Below, in pieces: positions 1,746 through 60,925 of a DNA stretch of 64,000 nucleotides. Under the pieces are notes generated by a model. That model ran no database searches, had not been told where the DNA came from, and was given only the letters and a program-made list of their open reading frames with translations. Source of the stretch: Anaerococcus obesiensis ph10 (lineage in GTDB: Bacteria > Bacillota > Clostridia > Tissierellales > Peptoniphilaceae); the NCBI RefSeq assembly GCF_000311745.1, contig NZ_HE978533.1, forward strand, positions 92,087 to 156,086, read 5' to 3'. The position numbers were made by a program, and so were the translations under genes. The stretch's first letter is position 1, and each line of letters starts with the position of its first letter.

Positions 1746-2732
1746 TTATTTTGCTTTCCAATCTTTTTTGCTAAAGTCTTGTCCTTGTCGTGGATATTTA
1801 GGACATCCGTATTTTTTTGCCCACCAAGCTGTTATTATAGGTATTAATATAGCTGTCATAACTGTAGATGCCGCAACTTGAGTTGTTGCTGCTGTAACAT
1901 ATGGTGCCCAACTTGCATCAATTGATGCTACTACTGCAGGTACAGCAATCGCATTTCCTGCAGTTGATGAAACAGCCCAACCTGCATAGCCAGGTCTTTT
2001 ATTGAAAATTCTATCACACAAAACGACGAATGGTCCACTTATGCATACTGTAATTATTCCCAATAATATTCCAGGAGCTCCTCCAGCAACTATTCCTTTT
2101 ACATCAATACCAGCACCCAAAGTAATACCAACAAATGGTAAAAGTAATCCTATACCTGGTTCTAAAAATTCACTCATTTTCTTATCTATATTTCCAATTA
2201 TCATTCCAAAAATTATAGGAACTATTACCGCTATTAAAGATGTTATAGGAATTTGTGCTAATCCACTAGCTCCTAAGGTAACCAATGTTAAAAATGGTCC
2301 ATCATTAATTGCTAACAAACTCATTGCTGTTTGATCAACTTCATCTCCATACTCAACATTTAATGCCAAATACATTGAACCATTTGAATTTGTTATTGCA
2401 CTTATTATTGCAAGAGTTGTAAGTCCAAATATACCTACCATACCAAAAGCTTTTCCTACAATTATTCCTATGATAGCTCCAATAGCATATTTAGATAAAA
2501 GTAACACTCCACCTCTTCTTACTACTTCCGCTAATTCTTTAACCCTTAATTGGGCTCCCATACAAACTAATTGAACACCTAGAACAGCTGCTGTTCCTGC
2601 ACTAGTAAAAACAGCCGTAGTAAATGACCCTATTTGTAACATATCTGGGAAAAATGTATTTATAAGAGCAGATAGAAACATTGGCACTATCATCATTCCC
2701 GCCGGAACTTTCTTTAAAAATTTTAAAATCAT
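1746..2732 (-). CDS. kdgT: 2-keto-3-deoxygluconate permease family transporter
   Basis: A 328-residue polytopic membrane protein of the KdgT family, starting MILKFLKKVPAGMMIVPMF and containing about ten hydrophobic segments and the family stretch TNSNGSMYLAL near residue 123. Family members import 2-keto-3-deoxygluconate by proton symport. It is the first gene of the operon and is followed by the two dehydratase subunits and a DapA-like aldolase, so uptake and breakdown of the same sugar acid are encoded together. The family is clear. The true substrate is not proven. Confidence 0.88.
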   Translation of the reverse strand: MILKFLKKVPAGMMIVPMFLSALINTFFPDMLQIGSFTTAVFTSAGTAAVLGVQLVCMGAQLRVKELAEVVRRGGVLLLSKYAIGAIIGIIVGKAFGMVGIFGLTTLAIISAITNSNGSMYLALNVEYGDEVDQTAMSLLAINDGPFLTLVTLGASGLAQIPITSLIAVIVPIIFGMIIGNIDKKMSEFLEPGIGLLLPFVGITLGAGIDVKGIVAGGAPGILLGIITVCISGPFVVLCDRIFNKRPGYAGWAVSSTAGNAIAVPAVVASIDASWAPYVTAATTQVAASTVMTAILIPIITAWWAKKYGCPKYPRQGQDFSKKDWKAK

Positions 2733-3178
2733 AATTATCTCCTATTGTTATATTAATTTTACATAAAGACAAGCATTTTATTACTTAGTAAAATTTTTCA
2801 AATTTTCTGTTCAATAAATATTGCTCCTTGTTTACTTATATAGAAATCTTTTTTACATTTTTTAGTAATTCAAATATTTTTTAATTTCATATATAAGTAC
2901 TGCTACCTTTCTAACTTTCTAATATTATAAATTTTTGGCAATTCATAATATTTTATGCAATTATGCTCAGTATCTCCCTCCATCTTAAATTTAAATTGGC
3001 CTTTTTAAATTTGTTCGTATTTGCGTTTTTATATGTATATACGTCTTATGCTTATAATATAACTCACTTTAAAATCGATGTCAAGGATTTTAATTCATTT
3101 TTTCTGTATTATTTTGTCTTATTAATTTTTTTTATTTAAATTTCAAATTTAAATTTATCAAATTTTGTTTATTCAACT
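2733..3178. other. Long untranslated leader and AT-rich gap upstream of kdgT
   Basis: No credible gene lies here. The only strong signal is the minus-strand promoter at 3056-3084, which would give kdgT an untranslated leader of about 315 nucleotides. I saw no known riboswitch in the leader. The part beyond the promoter is low-complexity A/T sequence with repeated AAATTTAAA runs. Confidence 0.6.
3056..3084 (-). promoter_or_regulatory. Promoter of the kdgT operon with GTATATAC site
   Basis: Read on the minus strand, a perfect TTGACA -35 (3079-3084) is followed after 17 bases by TATATT (3056-3061). An 8-base palindrome GTATATAC lies at 3035-3042, just after the expected start point. That shape is common in GntR-family operators and would place a repressor on the early transcribed region. 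Operator identity is an inference. Confidence 0.72.
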
Positions 3179-3181
3179 AAA

Positions 3182-3208
3182 AAAACAAGCGATGTCTTCG
3201 CTTGTTTT
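3182..3208 (-). terminator. Terminator after degV
   Basis: The arms ACAAGCGA and TCGCTTGT pair across a 5-base loop and are flanked by A and T runs. It lies just after the reconstructed degV end at 3217, which supports reading degV through its frameshift. Confidence 0.75.
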
Positions 3209-3216
3209 ACTTTTTA

Positions 3217-4076
3217 CTATTCATAATCTACAACACTTACAAGTATTGATTTTGGTCCTAAATGGACTCCGAATACTGGGGGTACTGTCATTTCTTTATA
3301 TATTTTTGCATTTTTTATTTCTTCTTTTAGCAATTCTTTTATTATTTTTATTTCTTCAAAGCTTGCTCCGCCGCCTATTGCTAGACCGTATTCTTTTTTA
3401 TCTTTTATTTTTTCTTTATGATTTTTGCTATTTCTTGGAATGATTTTTTTCTTCCTATAACTTTTTTTGCTATTTTTATTTCTCCGTCTTTCATTGTAAA
3501 AATCGGTGTGAAATTTATAAGATTTGCAACTTTTCCTATTGATTTTGGTAATCTACCTCCTTTTACAAGGTAGTCAAGACTTTCTGCTCTTACGTATATA
3601 TTTGCTTTTTCTACATCTTTTATTGCTCTTTTATAAATTTCTTCGTATTTTTTTCCTTTTATAGCTGATTTTGCTGCTTTTGTTGCTATAAAATATAGGG
3701 GTAGTGATGCTATTTTTGTATCTATTATATCGATTGTTACATTTTTATTTTCTATATGATCTTTTGCTAAATTCATCATATTATTCATTCCTGAAAGATG
3801 GGATGATATTGAAAAACATAGGATTTTATTGTAGCCTTCTTCTATATATTTTTCTAGAATTTCCACAAATTCTCCTACTCCTGGTATTGATGTGCTAACT
3901 TTTTCTTCTGTGTTTTTTAATTTTTCAAAAAATTCTTCGCTTTCTAAATCTATTTGGTCCGTGTAGCTTGTATCTCCAAAATGTATTTTGAATGGGACTA
4001 TGCCTATGTTATATTTTTTTGCTTCTTCCAGGTTAATCGAGTTTCCTGAATCTACTATTATTTTTATTTTCTCCAT
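3217..4076 (-). pseudogene. DegV family fatty-acid-binding protein, frameshifted
   Basis: DegV proteins bind fatty acids and hand them to the fatty acid kinase FakA. The N-terminal 223 residues (IIVDSGNS start, SISSHLSGMNN near residue 93, GGRLPKS near 175) match the family, which is normally about 280 residues. The frame stops at 3405. Adding one A to the A6 run just before the stop (about 3408-3413) opens a further 62 codons holding GLAIGGG and PPVFGVHLGP, the expected C-terminal end, with a stop at 3217-3219. It is therefore either a one-base loss in a homopolymer or a sequencing error. It follows gpmA but is separated from it by a terminator. Confidence 0.82.
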
Positions 4077-17592: not shown

Positions 17593-17720
17593 AAGGACAT
17601 AGTTTATTTAGTTGTATTTTAGTGACATTGTTAATAAAATATAAAAATTAATGTTTTTATAAATAAATTTAGGGTATTTTTTAATATAATTATAAACATT
17701 AAAATTTTAAGGAGGTTTAT

Positions 17721-18643
17721 ATGAAAATAAGAGATTTATATCATTTTTTACATTAGTTATTGTGTTAATAGGGCTTATATTCGCACCTAAAAAATCTACA
17801 TACGCAACATCGAGTGATTTAATTACAGATGAAAATACAGATTTATTAGAAGTTGAATTATATACTGAAACAAAAGATATTTTTCCAAAAGACATTTTTG
17901 AAGAAGTTTTTAATGAAGATGATTTAGAATTTTTAAGAAAAAATTATAACGCTAAAACAAATTATTTGGGAAATAACGTTGAAATTGAAATTAAAACTAA
18001 AATGAAACCCTCTACTGAAAATGGTCTAATATTATATTCTGATAATAAACCAATCCAAGTTAAATCTAATGGAACTATAGTTGTTAATAAGAATATAGAA
18101 AATATATCTAAAATAAAAACTTCAAATGATAATCATATACATGCTTATAACAAGATTAATGAATATGATTTAACTTCTTTTAATGAATCTAAAATTAAAA
18201 AAATAAGTAATTCTAATAAAGCAGAAGCTGTATTTACAGCTAGTTCTGGAAATTTATTAGCAGTAATGGACGAAAAGGAAGAAAATTATCCCAAAAAAGA
18301 TGGTGTTAGCGCAAGAATGGCTCATAAAGGTTACGGAGATAAATATTACCCTGGAGATTGGGTCCATTGCAATAGATTTAATGGTCAACTTACAGATGAT
18401 GTACATTATAACTGGAGGACAGGGTCATCTGCTGAAAAAGCTAAAGCTGTAAAGAATTTTTATTCTAGTGATTGCCACGTAGCATTAGTTCAAGCAGGAA
18501 GTGGTTGCACAAGCAAGGGTTCATGTCAATGTCGTACCACACAAAGAGCAGCTTACTGTTCTGGATTTACTAAAGATAAAAACTCTGGAAAAAAATGTAG
18601 TTATACTTATCATAAACATTCTGGATTAGTTGTTCCAAGATAA
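17721..18643 (+). pseudogene. Secreted cysteine-rich protein, frameshifted in the signal peptide
   Basis: A strong AAGGAGG site leads to ATG at 17721, but that frame stops after 11 codons. Adding one A to the A4 run at 17724-17727 joins it to the open frame running to 18643 and yields a textbook signal peptide (MKNKRFISFF, hydrophobic core, cut near STYA). The mature protein of about 275 residues has a polar N-terminal half and a C-terminal domain (about 185-306) with at least seven cysteines, including GCTSKGSCQCR, and several Trp and His. I do not recognise the domain. A secreted toxin, adhesin or bacteriocin-like product is possible but unproven. Confidence 0.68.
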
Positions 18644-18644
18644 T

Positions 18645-18668
18645 AAAAGAGCGGAGTCCCGCTCTTTT
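18645..18668. terminator. Bidirectional terminator
   Basis: A 10-base perfect stem, AAAAGAGCGG and CCGCTCTTTT, with an AGTC loop, between the convergent genes ending at 18643 and 18674. Confidence 0.88.
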
Positions 18669-18673
18669 ATTAT

Positions 18674-19162
18674 CTAAAAATCATTTTGTTCAATGTTTTT
18701 TATATCTATTGATATATCTTTTTTATTGTCATTTTTTATAAACATGTCTAATAAAGTAATTGAATTTTTATTATTAGAATTTAATTCGAAAATGCCATAG
18801 AATGCCTCTTCATAATAAATATAATTATTTTCTTCATAAATTGAATGCTTAATATATCCTCCATTTAACATTTTAAAAGCAACTACAGTAAATTTATCTT
18901 TATTAGGAAAAGAAGAAGTACTTTCTTTATTTATTCTTTTTGAATTTTTTAATAACTTTAGAAATCTATTTATATCCTTCTTTTTATAAATAGTATTTTT
19001 TTCGACTCCTTTATCATCAACAACATTAATAAGAGTTATGTTAATAATATTATCTACTTTTGGAATCTTTACATTTTTTTCATCATATTTATTTTTTATA
19101 TTTAAACCAAAAAGAATAAAAATAGGAATAATTATAAAATATATTTTTTTATTTATTTTCAT
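18674..19162 (-). CDS. Membrane-anchored protein of unknown function
   Basis: A 162-residue protein with one N-terminal membrane helix (residues 6-20, rich in Ile and Phe) and a soluble domain likely outside the cell. The segment from about 42 to 150 has the look of a small alpha/beta domain (ITLINVVDDKG, FTVVAFKML, YIYYEEAFYGIF), reminiscent of small anchored proteins of unknown function in clostridia. It lacks a lipobox cysteine. It lies convergent to the secreted cysteine-rich gene and next to IS remnants. Confidence 0.65.
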   Translation of the reverse strand: MKINKKIYFIIIPIFILFGLNIKNKYDEKNVKIPKVDNIINITLINVVDDKGVEKNTIYKKKDINRFLKLLKNSKRINKESTSSFPNKDKFTVVAFKMLNGGYIKHSIYEENNYIYYEEAFYGIFELNSNNKNSITLLDMFIKNDNKKDISIDIKNIEQNDF

Positions 19163-19280
19163 AAATTAATTTACTCCTTTCATATAGACATTATAACATC
19201 ACACAAAATAAATTTAAATTTTTTAATAGATACATGATTTAAAATTATTATAATACGAAACTGTGTAAAATTTTGTGTAT

Positions 19281-19326
19281 AAAACCCTCCTGATTAGAGT
19301 AAAGAAAAACTAATCAGGAGGGTTTT
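19281..19326 (+). promoter_or_regulatory. Hairpin sequestering the transposase ribosome site
   Basis: The arms AAACCCTCCTGATTAG (19282-19297) and CTAATCAGGAGGGTTT (19310-19325) are perfectly complementary, extendable by one pair, with a 12-base loop. The right arm contains the AGGAGGG ribosome site of the IS256-type transposase at 19328. Such hairpins protect insertion sequences from transcripts entering from outside. The fit of that idea here is an inference. Confidence 0.75.
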
Positions 19327-19327
19327 T

Positions 19328-19504
19328 ATGCCAAGAAAAAGACCAGAAACCAGAAGAAGAAAAATATCAAAAATGTTAATTGAAGAATATAAGCCTCAAA
19401 GTGCACAAGATATATAAGAAGCTTTAAAAGACCTTCTAGGCAATACAATGGAAGCACTTTTAAAAGCAGAATTAGATGAACATTTAGACTATACTTCAAT
19501 ATAA
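19328..19504 (+). mobile_element. IS256-family transposase remnant (N-terminus)
   Basis: Only about 58 codons remain: MPRKRPETRRRKISKML, then LIEEYKPQSAQDI, a TAA stop (19415-19417), then EALKDLLGNTMEALLKAELDEHLDY. This is the conserved start of Mutator/IS256 transposases. The GTGTAAAA sequence at 19264-19271 fits the terminal repeat of this family. The catalytic domain is absent, so the copy is dead. Confidence 0.8.
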
Positions 19505-19514
19505 AAAGTACTAT

Positions 19515-19889
19515 ACCATTGACAGAAGAAGATAAAGAAAAGATTAAAGAAGAAAAAATAAAAAGAAAAAAAAGAAGAAGAATTAGAAAAAAAAAGAGCA
19601 AAAAAGACAAGAAGGAATTTGGAAAACCTCTTGGCAATGGCTTAAAGAGGATAATCGTAAAATTGTAGAAAATTCTGTGCCAGAAGAAAGATATAACTGG
19701 ATTTACGATGAAGCTTCAGACAGCTTTGAAGAAGCTAGCAAGGCTTTTTATTACTATAGTCAGTATGACACTATACCAGTAAGTAAAGAAGAATATGAAG
19801 AGCTTAAAGGTCAGTATATAACTAAGTTTGGTGGCTGGGAAAAGATAGATTTAAAACATACAGAATACAATGGTAAAAAATGGTACTAA
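19515..19889 (+). pseudogene. Remnant of a charged coiled-coil protein
   Basis: A broken reading frame. The first part encodes a Lys/Glu-rich helix (PLTEEDKEKIKEEKIK). After A-runs that shift the frame (near 19566-19573 and 19585-19593), the frame continues through IWKTSWQWLKEDNRK to 19889, ending EYNGKKWY. The open part from 19677 (VPEERYNWIYDEAS) contains many Tyr and Trp. I do not recognise it. It starts where the IS256 remnant breaks off, so it may be the tail of a gene cut by the insertion. Confidence 0.45.
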
Positions 19890-19951
19890 TATTAAGAGAC
19901 AAGACTTTATGACCTGAACTCGTAAACACGGAATAACTTAATAATAATATT

Positions 19952-20085
19952 TTAAACGGGATGTAATCTGTAATTAACAGGGGACATTCCGTTTAATTTT
20001 TCTTTATCCTCTCTTCGTTATACCATTTGATATATGATTCTATTTCTTTTCTTAATTTAATTTTAAATTTTTTTGCGTATTTTGA
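19952..20085 (-). mobile_element. IS3-family (IS150-like) transposase C-terminal remnant
   Basis: On the minus strand the end of an OrfB integrase is readable: KLRKEIESYIKWYNEERI, then, after restoring one A in the run at 19997-20001, KKKLNGMSPVNYR and a stop. YIKWYNEERI and LNGMSPVNYR are the family's conserved C-terminal signature. Everything upstream is gone, so it is a relic. Confidence 0.82.
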
Positions 20086-20091
20086 AATGAA

Positions 20092-20126
20092 AAACCCCTC
20101 CATCCGTATTCCGGATTTTGGGGTTT
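20092..20126 (-). terminator. Terminator after the 20.2 kb gene
   Basis: Nested stems AAACCCC / GGGGTTT and ATCCG / CGGAT form a two-part hairpin. On the minus strand GGGG is followed by TTTTT. Confidence 0.75.
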
Positions 20127-20173
20127 AGGTCATTATTATTGTCTTTTTCTTTATTTTCTATATAAAGTTTTAC

Positions 20174-20599
20174 TTAAATTTGAAAATTAAAGATGTATCC
20201 CTTATCCAAATCACTGTTATAAATATATAAGGTGCTGTGACCTTTTTTATCGATATTTTCTTGGTAGAAGTAAACAGTATTACTATCTTTTTCTAGTTCG
20301 GATATCGAATTTGACAAGACGCCATAATCTTCTATTTCAGATTTATAACTTTCCATCATTTGTTTGAACCCTTTCGATTTTATATAATAATCATCATCTA
20401 TTTTTTTCCGGTTATCTTGCTTTCCCTTAGAATTAATTAGGTATATATCGAAGTAATCATCTCCAAAAGCTCTTTCAGATTTAAATATCCTCTTTGCGTA
20501 TTGGATATCCTCCACGCTAGATTTTAGATTGAAAAATATTAGGCATACTACAAATACTACAAGTATTAAAAGTGGTATATATTTTTTTCTCTTAATCAT
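20174..20599 (-). CDS. Small membrane-anchored protein, partner of the 20.6 kb secreted protein
   Basis: A 141-residue protein with a basic start (MIKRKKY), one membrane helix (residues 8-24) and an outward-facing domain (about 30-141) with several aromatic strands (DDYFDIYLINSKG, STLYIYNSDLDKG). No lipobox and no recognised family. It begins 3 bases after the stop of the secreted protein gene, so they form a pair. An immunity or anchoring role for the secreted partner is possible but only inferred. Confidence 0.62.
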   Translation of the reverse strand: MIKRKKYIPLLILVVFVVCLIFFNLKSSVEDIQYAKRIFKSERAFGDDYFDIYLINSKGKQDNRKKIDDDYYIKSKGFKQMMESYKSEIEDYGVLSNSISELEKDSNTVYFYQENIDKKGHSTLYIYNSDLDKGYIFNFQI

Positions 20600-20602
20600 C
20601 TT

Positions 20603-21307
20603 TTATTTCTGCATTTCTATGCTAACATTTATAGGTGTCAATACTTCCATTTTTTGATTTAAATACCCCCAGTTATTGACTAGTGTGGAAAACGTATTTT
20701 GATAATCTGTATTAAGAGCAAAATCAAATGTATCTGAAATATATAATTTATTAGTTTTACTATTATGGTATTTGAAAGCATGGATTGCATAGTATAAATC
20801 TTCACTATCACTTGTAGTAAAGTTGTCACTTCCAGATCCAGACTGTATTCTTTTATAAACATTTGTTCCTTTGATAGCTTTAGAAAAAGGACCATTCTGT
20901 TCATAGTAATCAATACCGTCAACAGAATATATTACGAGAGTGCCAGCCAATGGATACCCACTATTTATAGCTATTTGTGCCGCTGCTTTCCATGCTATTT
21001 TTAAAGAATCTTTTACATTATTAGAAGCGTACGTTGATATACCATTATCATTATCTGCAACATAATTAATAACTTCATTTAATTGATCGTTAGTCATTCT
21101 AGTTAAAGAATCAGTCATTTTTAGATTGTCTTCAACAGTTTTAACATCTAATACATCAATAGGTTTATCAAAACGTTTTTCAGAAATATAGGAATAATTA
21201 TCTTCCGTTCCATCATTAAGATTATCAGCTTTTACATTCTTGAATGGAGATAAGATTAAAATTGTAGACATAGTTATAAAAGTTATATTTTTTAGAAATT
21301 TATTCAT
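20603..21307 (-). CDS. Secreted protein of unknown function
   Basis: A 234-residue protein with a clear signal peptide (MNKFLKN, hydrophobic core, likely cut after NVKA near residue 27), preceded by AGGAGG. The mature part has a helical N-terminal section (about 60-95), a Gly/Tyr-rich middle (NSGYPLAGTLVIYSVDG), and a C-terminal section with SDTFDFAL and LVNNWGYLNQ. I do not recognise a named domain. It is paired with the small membrane protein behind it. Confidence 0.68.
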   Translation of the reverse strand: MNKFLKNITFITMSTILILSPFKNVKADNLNDGTEDNYSYISEKRFDKPIDVLDVKTVEDNLKMTDSLTRMTNDQLNEVINYVADNDNGISTYASNNVKDSLKIAWKAAAQIAINSGYPLAGTLVIYSVDGIDYYEQNGPFSKAIKGTNVYKRIQSGSGSDNFTTSDSEDLYYAIHAFKYHNSKTNKLYISDTFDFALNTDYQNTFSTLVNNWGYLNQKMEVLTPINVSIEMQK

Positions 21308-21416
21308 TGGTTCCTCCTTTTATTCGATTTATACAACCTTTTCAATAATATTTGTACCCGACTTATTTACCAATAAACAAATTTCTTACTTCTGATATAC
21401 TATATAAGGTATACTC

Positions 21417-21430
21417 TATAATCGATTATA
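21417..21430. promoter_or_regulatory. 14-base palindrome upstream of the secreted-protein gene
   Basis: TATAATCGATTATA is perfectly symmetric and lies about 110 bases upstream of the minus-strand gene starting at 21307 and a similar distance before the toxin-antitoxin promoter. Operator function is a guess. Confidence 0.4.
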
Positions 21431-21525
21431 AGAATTATAATTTTAAAACTTTAGCGATTGTGCTTCATATTTTGCGTTTCAAGCGATTTTAGATGTTTAG
21501 GTATATATTGGTATTATAAAAGAAT

Positions 21526-21554
21526 TTGACGTATTGTATGTGTTGATGTATTCT
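21526..21554 (+). promoter_or_regulatory. Promoter of the type III antitoxin RNA
   Basis: TTGACG (21526-21531) and TATTCT (21549-21554) are separated by 17 bases. The expected start point near 21561 is 12 bases before the pseudoknot-forming sequence. Confidence 0.65.
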
Positions 21555-21560
21555 TATTAT

Positions 21561-21641
21561 ATAAGAAGGAGATTCACTGCCTATCTAAAGTGTGAAACTT
21601 TAAAGATTAGTAAGAGGAGAATTAGATTTCTCCTCTTTTTT
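21561..21641 (+). ncRNA. Candidate ToxI-like antitoxin RNA
   Basis: An RNA of about 80 nucleotides, from the promoter to the terminator just before the toxin gene. It can fold as an H-type pseudoknot: TTCAC (21573-21577) pairs with GTGAA (21592-21596), and TAAAG in the loop (21586-21590) pairs with CTTTA (21598-21602). Type III antitoxins are pseudoknotted RNAs placed this way, usually as tandem repeats. Only one unit is visible here. The identification rests on position, fold and the ToxN-like gene that follows. Confidence 0.6.
21612..21640 (+). terminator. Terminator between antitoxin RNA and toxin gene
   Basis: A perfect 10-base stem, AAGAGGAGAA and TTCTCCTCTT, with a 6-base loop, continues into a T run. 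In type III systems such a leaky terminator sets the ratio of antitoxin RNA to toxin mRNA. Confidence 0.85.
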
Positions 21642-21656
21642 TATTAAGGAGAATAT

Positions 21657-22257
21657 ATGGTAAACAAAAATAATATTGAATGTCATCTTAAAAATAATGA
21701 GATCAGGTTCTATACTGTTGATTATAATTATCTTGAATATCTTCATAATGTAGATTCTGAAGTTCAATTTTCTAATGAATATAATTCATCTAGACATCCT
21801 AAGCCTTTCTTAGGTATTTTAATTTTTATCAATGATATTAAATACTTAATACCTCTATCTTCGGCAAAGCCAAAGCATGCAAGATTAAATTTTAAAAATA
21901 CTGGAATAGGACATTTATTAATTAGAGAGAAATAAATATTTCAGATAATTGTGACTCTGGTTGGATTGTAAAAGAAATTCCTGGTGATGAAGAGAAAAAG
22001 TATCATATACTTTCAATTTTAGAAATAAAAAAATGATTCCATTAAAAGATAGATTCTATGAAAAAATGGATTTTGAAAGAATAGAAGATGATGAATATGT
22101 AGATTTATTAAAAAAAGAGTATTTGTTTTGTAGATCTAAAAAGGATTTAATTATAGATAAGGCTGAGAAATTATATAATAATCAGATAAATCAAAATAGC
22201 TTCGTCAGATTTTCTTGTGATTTCAAAAAATTAGAAGAAGCTTCTTTTCAATTTTAA
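21657..22257 (+). pseudogene. ToxN/AbiQ family type III toxin, two frameshifts
   Basis: ToxN/AbiQ proteins are endoribonucleases held inactive by a pseudoknot RNA and act against phage. The frame starts behind AAGGAGA with IRFYTVDYNYLEYLHNVD and KPFLGILIFINDIKYLIPLS, the family's N-terminal signature with its conserved Tyr and Ser residues. It shifts at the A3 run 21930-21932 and again at the A7 run 22027-22033. One A added at each site restores about 200 codons, including SILEIKKMIPL and a helical C-terminus (DLLKKEYLFCR, KAEKLYNNQ). Normal toxins are 165-200 residues. Whether the shifts are real or sequencing errors decides whether the toxin is active. Confidence 0.8.
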
Positions 22258-22373
22258 TATTTCTATTTAAAACTAGATTTACGATATGTTGATTTTTACC
22301 TTATTATAGTTAGTATCTAAAAAACATTTTGTAACATTAATAACTAGGGATAGATTAATTTCAGCTATATCTT

Positions 22374-22406
22374 AAAAAGACAGGTATGAGTACAACCCGC
22401 CTTTTT
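22374..22406 (+). terminator. Probable terminator after the toxin gene
   Basis: AAAAAGACAGGT pairs with ACCCGCCTTTTT apart from two A-C mismatches, and a T run follows. The mismatches suggest decay. Confidence 0.5.
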
Positions 22407-22456
22407 TTTATAATATGTTAACTTTTATTTTTCAAAAATCACATAATTAATATATT

Positions 22457-22639
22457 TTATATTATATTTAAATTCATCATTAAAAATATATTTACAATAC
22501 TAAAAATAAGAGCTATAATTGTGAATACTTTCTTAAAATTATAGTTTTTTATTTCCTTTCCATTTTTTTTGTCTTTTATTATTAAAAATCCTCTAATAGT
22601 AGCTATTATAAGACCTATTTCCAATATAATCAATAACAT
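22457..22639 (-). CDS. 60-residue membrane protein
   Basis: A short protein with two hydrophobic helices (about residues 1-21 and 38-58) joined by a basic loop (KDKKNGKEIKNYNFKK). It starts 2 bases after the true end of the secreted-protein gene upstream, with AGGAAA as a weak ribosome site. The pairing of a secreted protein with a small membrane protein repeats the arrangement at 20.2-21.3 kb. Function is unknown; an immunity role is conceivable. Confidence 0.5.
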   Translation of the reverse strand: MLLIILEIGLIIATIRGFLIIKDKKNGKEIKNYNFKKVFTIIALIFSIVNIFLMMNLNII

Positions 22640-22641
22640 AA

Positions 22642-23292
22642 TTACAATTTCCTAATCTTAGTTTGCTTAATAGAATTTAAACTATCTATTGGAAATTCAG
22701 CAGAAGCTGTCATTCTAACTCCACCCCTACTAGAACCTACATCAATCCACTTTTTAATATCATTATATCCTTCGTTAACTCTAGCTCCTAAAACTTTTGC
22801 ACCAATAGCTCCTGCTATAGCTCATACAGGTCCTCTTTCAACAGAGCCAACTATTACCCCTGTAGCTAAAAGACCCATATCAGAACTACCTAGGTAATCT
22901 CTTGCGCTTATTAATGCTTGAGGTGAGGATCCATATACATTTAAGCCTCCTTTTACTACTTTTTCGGTATACGAATTATTTTGGGCTGACCTAAAACTAA
23001 TTTTAGGTATAAACGTTCTTTCCGCTCCATCATATTTAACTAGAAGATTTTGAAAATCTTTTTGTGATAACTCTCCTTTCTCATTTTTTATTGTTTTTAT
23101 TTCATTTTGTAATTCTTTACTTTTTTCATTTTCAACTATATTATATTGTTCCTTATAAGTCTCATCAGTTTCCGTATATTCTTTTTGAAGATCATAATTA
23201 TTAGAATCATCTGCTTTAGAATTACTAACTCCAAAGATTGGTAATAAACTCATACTTATTGATGTAATAATTAATAAATTTTTTAATTTCAT
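22642..23292 (-). pseudogene. Secreted glycine-rich protein interrupted by TGA
   Basis: The signal peptide (MKLKNLLIITSISMSLL, cut near NSKA) is followed by a charged region (30-80) and a Gly/Ala-rich hydrophobic stretch. After 156 codons a TGA (22822-22824) interrupts GLLATGVIVGSVERGPV, but the same frame continues with AIAGAIGAKVLGARVNEGY and KKWIDVGSSRGGV for 60 more codons. The glycine-zipper pattern continues across the stop, so a G-to-T change (GGA to TGA) is likely. TGA is a normal stop elsewhere in this window, so the gene is probably a recent pseudogene. Family unknown. Confidence 0.65.
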
Positions 23293-23456
23293 TTTTTCTC
23301 CTAAAGATTAATATTTATCTACCGACGTTAAATTAGTTACCCGATAATTATATATATAAACATTATATTCTTATACACTTATATGTACATAAATAAATTA
23401 CATATTATAACATATATGACTAAATAGAGTATAGCTTATAAATTTTATTACACTTC

Positions 23457-60260: not shown

Positions 60261-60925
60261 TTATTTGTATTTGTCTACTTCTTTTTGAAGTTTTTCTGCA
60301 TGCTCGCTGTCTCCCAATAAAACTAGGGTATCATCTTTTTTTATTTTCCAATTTGCATCTGGATTTATAACCATTTCTCCATCTCTTTTATAAGCTATTA
60401 CCATCATTTTATATTTTTTTCTAAAATCTACTTCTATCAAATTTTTTCCAATTATTTCTTTGAAAGCTTTTAATTCTAGCATAGAATAATCATCTGAAAA
60501 ATGGAAAAATTGTAGAAGATTTGATCCTGCAATGCTTCTTGCAAGCTTTTCTCCCATATCAATTTCTGGAAAAATTATTTGATCTGCTCCAATTTTTTCA
60601 AAATTCTTGCGTGATTTGTTGATGTTGCTTTGGCTATAATTTTTTCTACATTATGGTCTTTGGCAAATAAAGTTGCAGCCATTGACGCCTCAAGACTTTC
60701 TCCTGTTGCTATTACTGCCACATCAAAATTTCCAATTCCTAATTCTTCTAGCGCTTTGTCATTTGAAATATCGCATTGGACAGCACTTGTTACTTTGTCT
60801 GAAATATTTTGAACTAAATCATAATCTTTGTCCACCGCCATAACTTCTAATCCGTCTTCAAAAAGTTTTGTTGCAACTCTTTCTCCAAATCTTCCGATTC
60901 CTAAAACTATTACACTTTTTATCAT
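60261..60925 (-). pseudogene. ktrA: Potassium uptake regulator KtrA, frameshifted
   Basis: KtrA is the cytoplasmic ring that gates KtrB. The first frame (116 codons from 60925) has the RCK-N domain with VLGIGRFGERVATKLF and the conserved VDKD. It stops at 60575 after ILKKLEQIK. One A added to the A6 run at 60595-60600 gives ILKKIGADQIIFPEIDMGEK and joins it to the second frame (RCK-C domain, ending at 60261). Together they make about 221 residues, the normal length. One-base loss or sequencing error. Confidence 0.88.

Follow-up and report, generated by a model that had tools for sequence, protein, structure and literature searches.

A probable decayed ToxIN/AbiQ-type toxin-antitoxin locus on a small mobile island in a genome like that of Anaerococcus vaginalis

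The window (the whole 64-kb stretch of DNA analysed here, on contig C3 of a 2.04-Mb, five-contig Anaerococcus genome that is 92% complete) carries what, judging from its sequence, is quite probably a type III toxin-antitoxin locus of the ToxIN/AbiQ type that has decayed. It is situated on a small mobile island, and the genome resembles that of Anaerococcus vaginalis. The locus occupies 21526-22257 on the forward strand, and its elements follow one another in the order promoter-like pair, antitoxin RNA unit, intrinsic terminator, ribosome-binding site and toxin gene. It is classified here as a decayed relative of ToxIN rather than as a working ToxIN system, because an open toxin reading frame and a tandem array of antitoxin units were both looked for and neither was found.

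Elements of the locus

21526-21554, forward strand: promoter-like hexamers TTGACG and TATTCT, 17 nt apart, found by motif scan and positioned as in relatives
21568-21605, forward strand: single ToxI-type antitoxin unit of 38 nt, found with covariance model R1
21612-21643, forward strand: intrinsic terminator between antitoxin and toxin, with a 10-pair stem, a 6-nt loop and a T run
21646-21651, forward strand: AAGGAG, ribosome-binding site
21657, forward strand: ATG start of the toxin
21657-21935, forward strand: N-terminal ToxN piece of 92 aa (PF13958, E 6e-18, profile positions 2-60 of 159)
21935-22031, forward strand: middle ToxN piece of 32 aa in a second frame, flanked by the two matched pieces both on the DNA and along the family profile
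22033-22257, forward strand: C-terminal ToxN piece of 74 aa in a third frame (PF13958, E 1.1e-18, profile positions 84-156 of 159)

The promoter motif is not enriched (25 found versus 23.8 expected); it occupies the position at which, in the relatives, TTGACA- or TTGATA-type hexamers and TATACT precede the first antitoxin unit, and its spacing to that unit is 13 nt in the window versus 16 nt in, for example, locus L049. Intrinsic terminators are found above chance, with three in 3 kb versus 0.4 expected, and two of the three are the 21612-21637 hairpin, counted once on each strand. The initial annotation had read a promoter, a structured RNA, a strong terminator and a toxin gene in series, and the same order is recovered here; its description of that order as diagnostic of type III systems is slightly too strong, because the window locus lacks the tandem repeat.

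The gene that follows the terminator had also been assigned to the ToxN/AbiQ endoribonuclease family, and profile searches bear this out even without frame repair. When the toxin pieces were searched separately, the N- and C-terminal pieces each matched PF13958, the PADLOC AbiQ profile and the solved ToxN/AbiQ chains (PDB 2xd0, 7d8o, 4ato and 4glk). The 32-residue middle piece alone matched no family in Pfam or PADLOC, and neither of the long pieces matched NCBIfam at E up to 1. The toxin frame switches twice (frames 0, 2 and 1), and the longest piece is 92 residues. The active-site residues of ToxN Pa are Y29, K33, T52, S53 and K55, according to PMC5086642; in a phmmer alignment to 2xd0, K33, S53 and K55 are kept in the N-terminal piece, T52 is replaced by S, and Y29 aligns to S. 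Plasmid and phage records (138 and 3, respectively) match the N-terminal piece as well and, among the matches listed (15 of the 138 plasmid records), several are annotated as ToxN/AbiQ family toxins and all are below 60% identity. Genome-wide, PF13958 matched the 21526-22257 locus alone, and the search yielded no further ToxN.

The antitoxin unit was located with covariance model R1, which was built from the units of 12 relatives with the window's own unit excluded. The match at 21568-21605 scores 41 bits (E 1.7e-8 in 64 kb) and the next best 11.2 bits (E 1.5); R1 found no second unit in the window's genome (next matches at E 3.6 and 4.9), and neither R1 with filters off nor a repeat listing yielded a tandem copy. 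Relatives usually have two or three units before the terminator, and their parsed units are 34-41 nt long, with GG at the start and, in most of them, AAAG at the end. Four Lachnospiraceae loci (L129, L131, L159 and L163) combine a single unit with a ToxN frame that is open over the matched stretch, and a single unit therefore does not by itself exclude membership of the ToxIN family.

An alignment of the window's unit with 17 of the 29 distinct units of relatives (18 units in total) supports an H-type pseudoknot in which stem 1 has three pairs and stem 2 has four. Over these units 125 of the 126 pair cells are paired, and the sole miss is the third pair of stem 1 in the window, whose unit thus forms six of the seven pseudoknot pairs, with one extra pair on stem 2. 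When compared with 500 shuffles, the number of paired cells, the number of cells changed on both sides and the covariation score exceed every shuffle; the number of pairs that show changes on both sides was reached by 37 of the 500 and that of further pair types by 455. The true register outdoes all six slid versions on each of five measures, and pair 9-28 of stem 2 occurs as AU, GU, GC and UA. In addition, the window's unit keeps 18 of the 19 columns that are invariant in the 12 relatives' units, the remaining column being a loop gap; such conservation might reflect an RNA that is still in use. No Rfam family scored above its cut-off for the window RNA (the matches, at E 0.08-4.8, are all far below the family cut-offs), and in the loci of six relatives the only match at the gathering threshold was a group II intron in L104.

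The antitoxin RNA may still be transcribed. Since it consists of a single unit in which one pair is lost, selection on it has probably ceased as well or keeps it only loosely, and any order of decay for toxin and RNA would be a presumed one. The initial annotation had proposed, should the frameshifts be real, a functional antitoxin guarding a dead toxin: the toxin does look dead, but the antitoxin is a single unit that has lost one stem pair.

The island and the frame breaks

about 17603-23430 (about 5.8 kb), no strand: island carrying the locus, with flanks that are contiguous without it in relatives
17599-17602 and 23431-23434, no strand: ATAG at both island edges, read by eye
17603-17614 and about 23417-23430, no strand: short imperfect inverted ends of the island, read by eye
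near 19343-19500, forward strand: start fragment (remnant) of a transposase, presumably IS256-like, from its translation
22822-23292, reverse strand: secreted-type neighbour gene, broken, with 156 aa here versus one open frame of 217 aa in relative G007

The island is missing at this site in A. vaginalis ATCC 51170 (G101, the same species) and in three further Anaerococcus genomes, G007, G001 and G008; in all four the flanks run on with 17603-23422 left out. The joined flanks of these four genomes uphold the island that had been proposed earlier, and the island contains a remnant of a transposase that is presumably IS256-like. The edge repeat and the inverted ends are suggestive only as signs of insertion. 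The right part of the island (21780-23433) is found at another site in G007 with 96.6% DNA identity, and the island DNA has therefore moved. A search of the genome for other copies of the right end returned 13 further matches, each with three mismatches, and the 14 matches including its own compare with 22 for the reversed control. The island did not turn up in any second strain. The island encodes a DUF5301 protein and proteins without significant family matches. Two pairs of genes, at 20174-21307 and 22457-23292, each comprise a secreted-type and a small membrane-type protein, a layout like that of bacteriocin and immunity genes, with no significant family match.

The frame breaks of the toxin, already noted in the initial annotation, are seen again as two breaks, and comparison with related genomes indicates that they are probably real. 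Among the 79 open reading frames of the matching region of G101, 58 match the window at more than 80% identity, and 51 of these 58 are covered over at least 93% of their length without a stop; the other seven have lower coverage or contain a stop, in one case owing only to the window edge. With so many neighbouring genes uninterrupted, frame errors are not abundant in this assembly, which argues against widespread errors as the source of the toxin breaks. Few length differences separate the island flanks from G101. At 60575-60925 and 3405-4076 the window has genes that are possibly truncated, since they fall short of the orthologues in G101 (coverage 0.51 and 0.79, respectively).

The breaks lie about 100 bases apart, and the neighbouring secreted-type gene of the island, which is open in G007, is broken as well; real decay fits this combination better than sequencing error does. 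The second toxin break adjoins a run of A, whereas the first has no such run. The toxin of G007, the nearest copy to that of the window, is uninterrupted over the shared stretch, but its gene start and its antitoxin are missing, so that it is dead in another way than the toxin of the window. The C-terminal piece is 97% identical to G007, and the three nucleotide differences (no synonymous and two nonsynonymous codons of 74) are too few to judge selection.

Related loci and solitary antitoxin units

Scans of 130 genomes of the family (Peptoniphilaceae) found matches to the C-terminal piece in 26 and antitoxin units in 30. By the state of the toxin frame, the 30 family loci, the window included, comprise six that are fully open, one that lacks only its end and 23 that are broken, a count that leaves aside the second, more distant ToxN of G053, the order-level G074, G217, G238 and G248, and loci outside the family. 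At least one antitoxin unit is retained in 22 of the 23 broken-toxin loci, the exception being G007. Few events explain most of the 23. Ten lack the toxin start (the deletion form), and of these eight are collinear across the junction (at most one mismatch in 110) and two have an extra length difference; nine are frame-shifted, eight of them without a difference in the 100 bases that surround the break and the ninth different; the other four are the window, G007, G029 and G151.

L139 and L141-L148 (nine copies): frame-shifted form, broken toxin with the antitoxin kept
L115, L117, L119, L121-L123, L125-L127, L150 and L090: deletion form, broken toxin with the antitoxin kept

Within each form the records share 97.5-99.9% identity over the segment that carries the locus, and over both forms this segment occurs in nine genera of anaerobes; it may be a conjugative element. 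Both forms are adjoined by a gene that we take to be of the topoisomerase type. Eight frame-shifted copies, L144 (6001-6560) and its relatives, have one break in common, beside an A run; as their two toxin open reading frames overlap, slippage during expression is conceivable there. Near the deletion-form ToxIN of L126, two adjoining open reading frames (2509-3943) look like an AbiE-type pair.

The deletion form (11 copies) varies little in its control stretch: one of 123 sites is variable in the promoter, first unit and terminator, versus 33 of 384 in the toxin remnant, 13 of 180 before the promoter and 71 of 1570 in the topoisomerase part. The second unit has three variable sites of 42 and has lost one pair of stem 2. 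Fisher's test of the control stretch versus the toxin remnant gives p 0.0014 (1/123 versus 33/384), or p 0.008 with the second unit included (4/165), values to be read in the light of sites that are not independent and regions that were chosen after looking. Five copies with an open toxin, one of them short at the end, have 13 variable sites of 165 from promoter to terminator versus 25 of 385 in the toxin. In the nine frame-shifted copies, three of 50 promoter sites are variable, and the units, the terminator and the toxin stretch are invariant, so that this comparison has no power.

Four family genomes (G151, G136, G118 and G054) have units and gave no toxin match in the homology scans. G151 does contain a toxin, heavily decayed. 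The match in G136, considered as a third orphan antitoxin, was rejected as a chance match, being one of 28.8 bits inside a coding sequence and having no terminator. The remaining two carry solitary units:

L219 4609-4643 (G118): one unit, then a terminator; no PF13958 match genome-wide
L220 5812-5851 (G054): one unit, then a terminator; no PF13958 match genome-wide

The unit of G054 scores 29.9 bits, barely above the chance match of G136. A pattern scan of viral contigs returned four stretches (L222-L225), of which two hold canonical units:

IMG/VR contig L222, 222-261, forward strand: canonical unit, 63.6 bits
IMG/VR contig L223, 5658-5697, reverse strand: canonical unit, 63.6 bits

Searches by tblastn found no ToxN in the parts of these contigs examined (3.3 of 52 kb in L222 and 8.4 of 23.7 kb in L223). 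L223 retains the terminator and an apparent stub of the toxin start, and the neighbouring genes in these contigs match families of phage tape-measure and anti-repressor proteins. L224 gave weak matches (21.5 and 17.4 bits) that are taken as chance, and L225 was set aside as a solitary unit on account of a diverged ToxN gene adjoining its unit. Degenerate peptide patterns for toxin relatives matched 143 stretches of the viral contigs, none of which was confirmed, and an exact 18-base part of the window's unit is absent from these contigs.

A precedent for a solitary ToxI RNA is the pseudo-ToxI of phage PhiTE. According to PMC3475682, its single repeat failed in an overexpression assay owing to particular base changes, base changes elsewhere left ToxI active in that assay, and expanded pseudo-ToxI repeats suppressed abortive infection.

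Function, rival explanations and known counterparts

In a working relative, as is established for the family, the promoter drives an RNA of pseudoknot units that mostly ends at the terminator, with partial readthrough producing ToxN; the ToxN endoribonuclease cuts the RNA into units and stays inhibited by them until a phage upsets the balance. Processing of the antitoxin RNA into units by ToxN, and the holding of ToxN in an inactive state by those units, are described in PMC5086642 and PMC8860590. From the frames as read, the window would yield no full toxin, because they are broken twice and, as the genome search yielded no other ToxN, the locus most likely does nothing now.

Against this reading stands the fact that it comes from one assembly only, of 92% completeness and in five contigs, in which local sequence errors are possible. 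The lack of NCBIfam matches to either long toxin piece and the well-kept invariant columns of the antitoxin unit also weigh against it. The two breaks may thus be sequencing or assembly errors in an intact toxin, and the locus a working single-unit ToxIN; the A run beside one break and the single-unit Lachnospiraceae loci with an open ToxN stretch speak for this. We consider it unlikely in view of the 51 of 58 uninterrupted neighbours, the closeness of the two breaks, the third break in the neighbouring island gene and the fact that the window's unit has the sole broken pair of the aligned set. Much less credible still is that programmed slippage joins the toxin pieces into a low level of full-length ToxN. 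The second break does lie at an A run, as does the one common break of eight frame-shifted relatives from six genera, but no run of A accompanies the first break, for which a further event, independent of the other, would be required.

A different explanation would leave the toxin dead and have the antitoxin RNA selected after its loss, either neutralising the ToxN of incoming or resident elements or countering host ToxIN from a phage or mobile element. The retention of at least one unit in nearly all of the broken-toxin loci (22 of 23), the low variability of promoter, first unit and terminator relative to the toxin remnant in the deletion form, and the solitary units of G118, G054 (neither with a PF13958 match in its genome) and two viral contigs are consistent with this, as is the antitoxic effect of a single cognate ToxI repeat in an overexpression assay that PMC3475682 implies. 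For the window we nevertheless regard it as rather unlikely: it has one unit, one lost pair and no relatives by which constraint could be gauged. Moreover, the 23 loci stem from few events, the regions were picked post hoc with sites that are not independent, and the control groups (open toxin and frame-shifted) do not repeat the contrast. At the window locus, selection for a solitary antitoxin RNA is possible, and decay is the reading that we continue to prefer. The broader proposal, that the solitary ToxI RNA is itself a unit of selection and, once the toxin is lost, is kept by phages, mobile elements and islands such as that of the window because it disarms the ToxN systems they encounter (anti-addiction or anti-defence), is put forward as a tentative and rather doubtful one.

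Taken singly, the locus is unremarkable, the fossil remains of a system against phages in the genome of an anaerobic coccus. It leads on to a testable pattern: most of the examined ToxIN loci of this type in the family have a dead toxin and a retained antitoxin RNA, and the examined parts of two viral contigs hold the RNA and no toxin. We do not claim this wider pattern of broken toxins and kept antitoxins as unpublished. If the RNA is indeed selected, toxin-less antitoxins would constitute an RNA counter-defence that has been overlooked by toxin-based searches.

Our literature search found no paper on ToxN in Anaerococcus. Among the known systems, ToxIN of Pectobacterium atrosepticum and E. 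coli (2xd0, 7d8o) resembles the window locus in the sequence family of ToxN and in the order of elements; the Pectobacterium system has 5.5 antitoxin repeats (PMC5086642), whereas the window has one unit and a twice-broken toxin. AbiQ/antiQ of Lactococcus (4glk) is likewise related, since the PADLOC AbiQ profile matches both of the long window pieces, but antiQ has 2.8 repeats according to PMC5086642, versus one unit and no open toxin in the window. The same source states that the AbiQ antitoxin works with at least 1.8 repeats and not with 0.8, and one full unit falls between these values. The ToxIN-like loci of Peptoniphilaceae (for example L103, L104 and L106-L109) share the unit architecture and the terminator placement of the window; G007 apart, the window's N-terminal piece is 45-54% identical to theirs and the C-terminal piece mostly 36-46%. 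They differ in that they usually have two units, and L103, L104 and L106-L109 have an open toxin. Finally, the pseudo-ToxI of phage PhiTE, as described in PMC3475682, is a ToxI-like RNA that, as in the window, lies away from a working ToxIN; it is phage-borne and effective after repeat expansion, whereas the unit of the window belongs to a bacterial island and adjoins what is left of a toxin gene.
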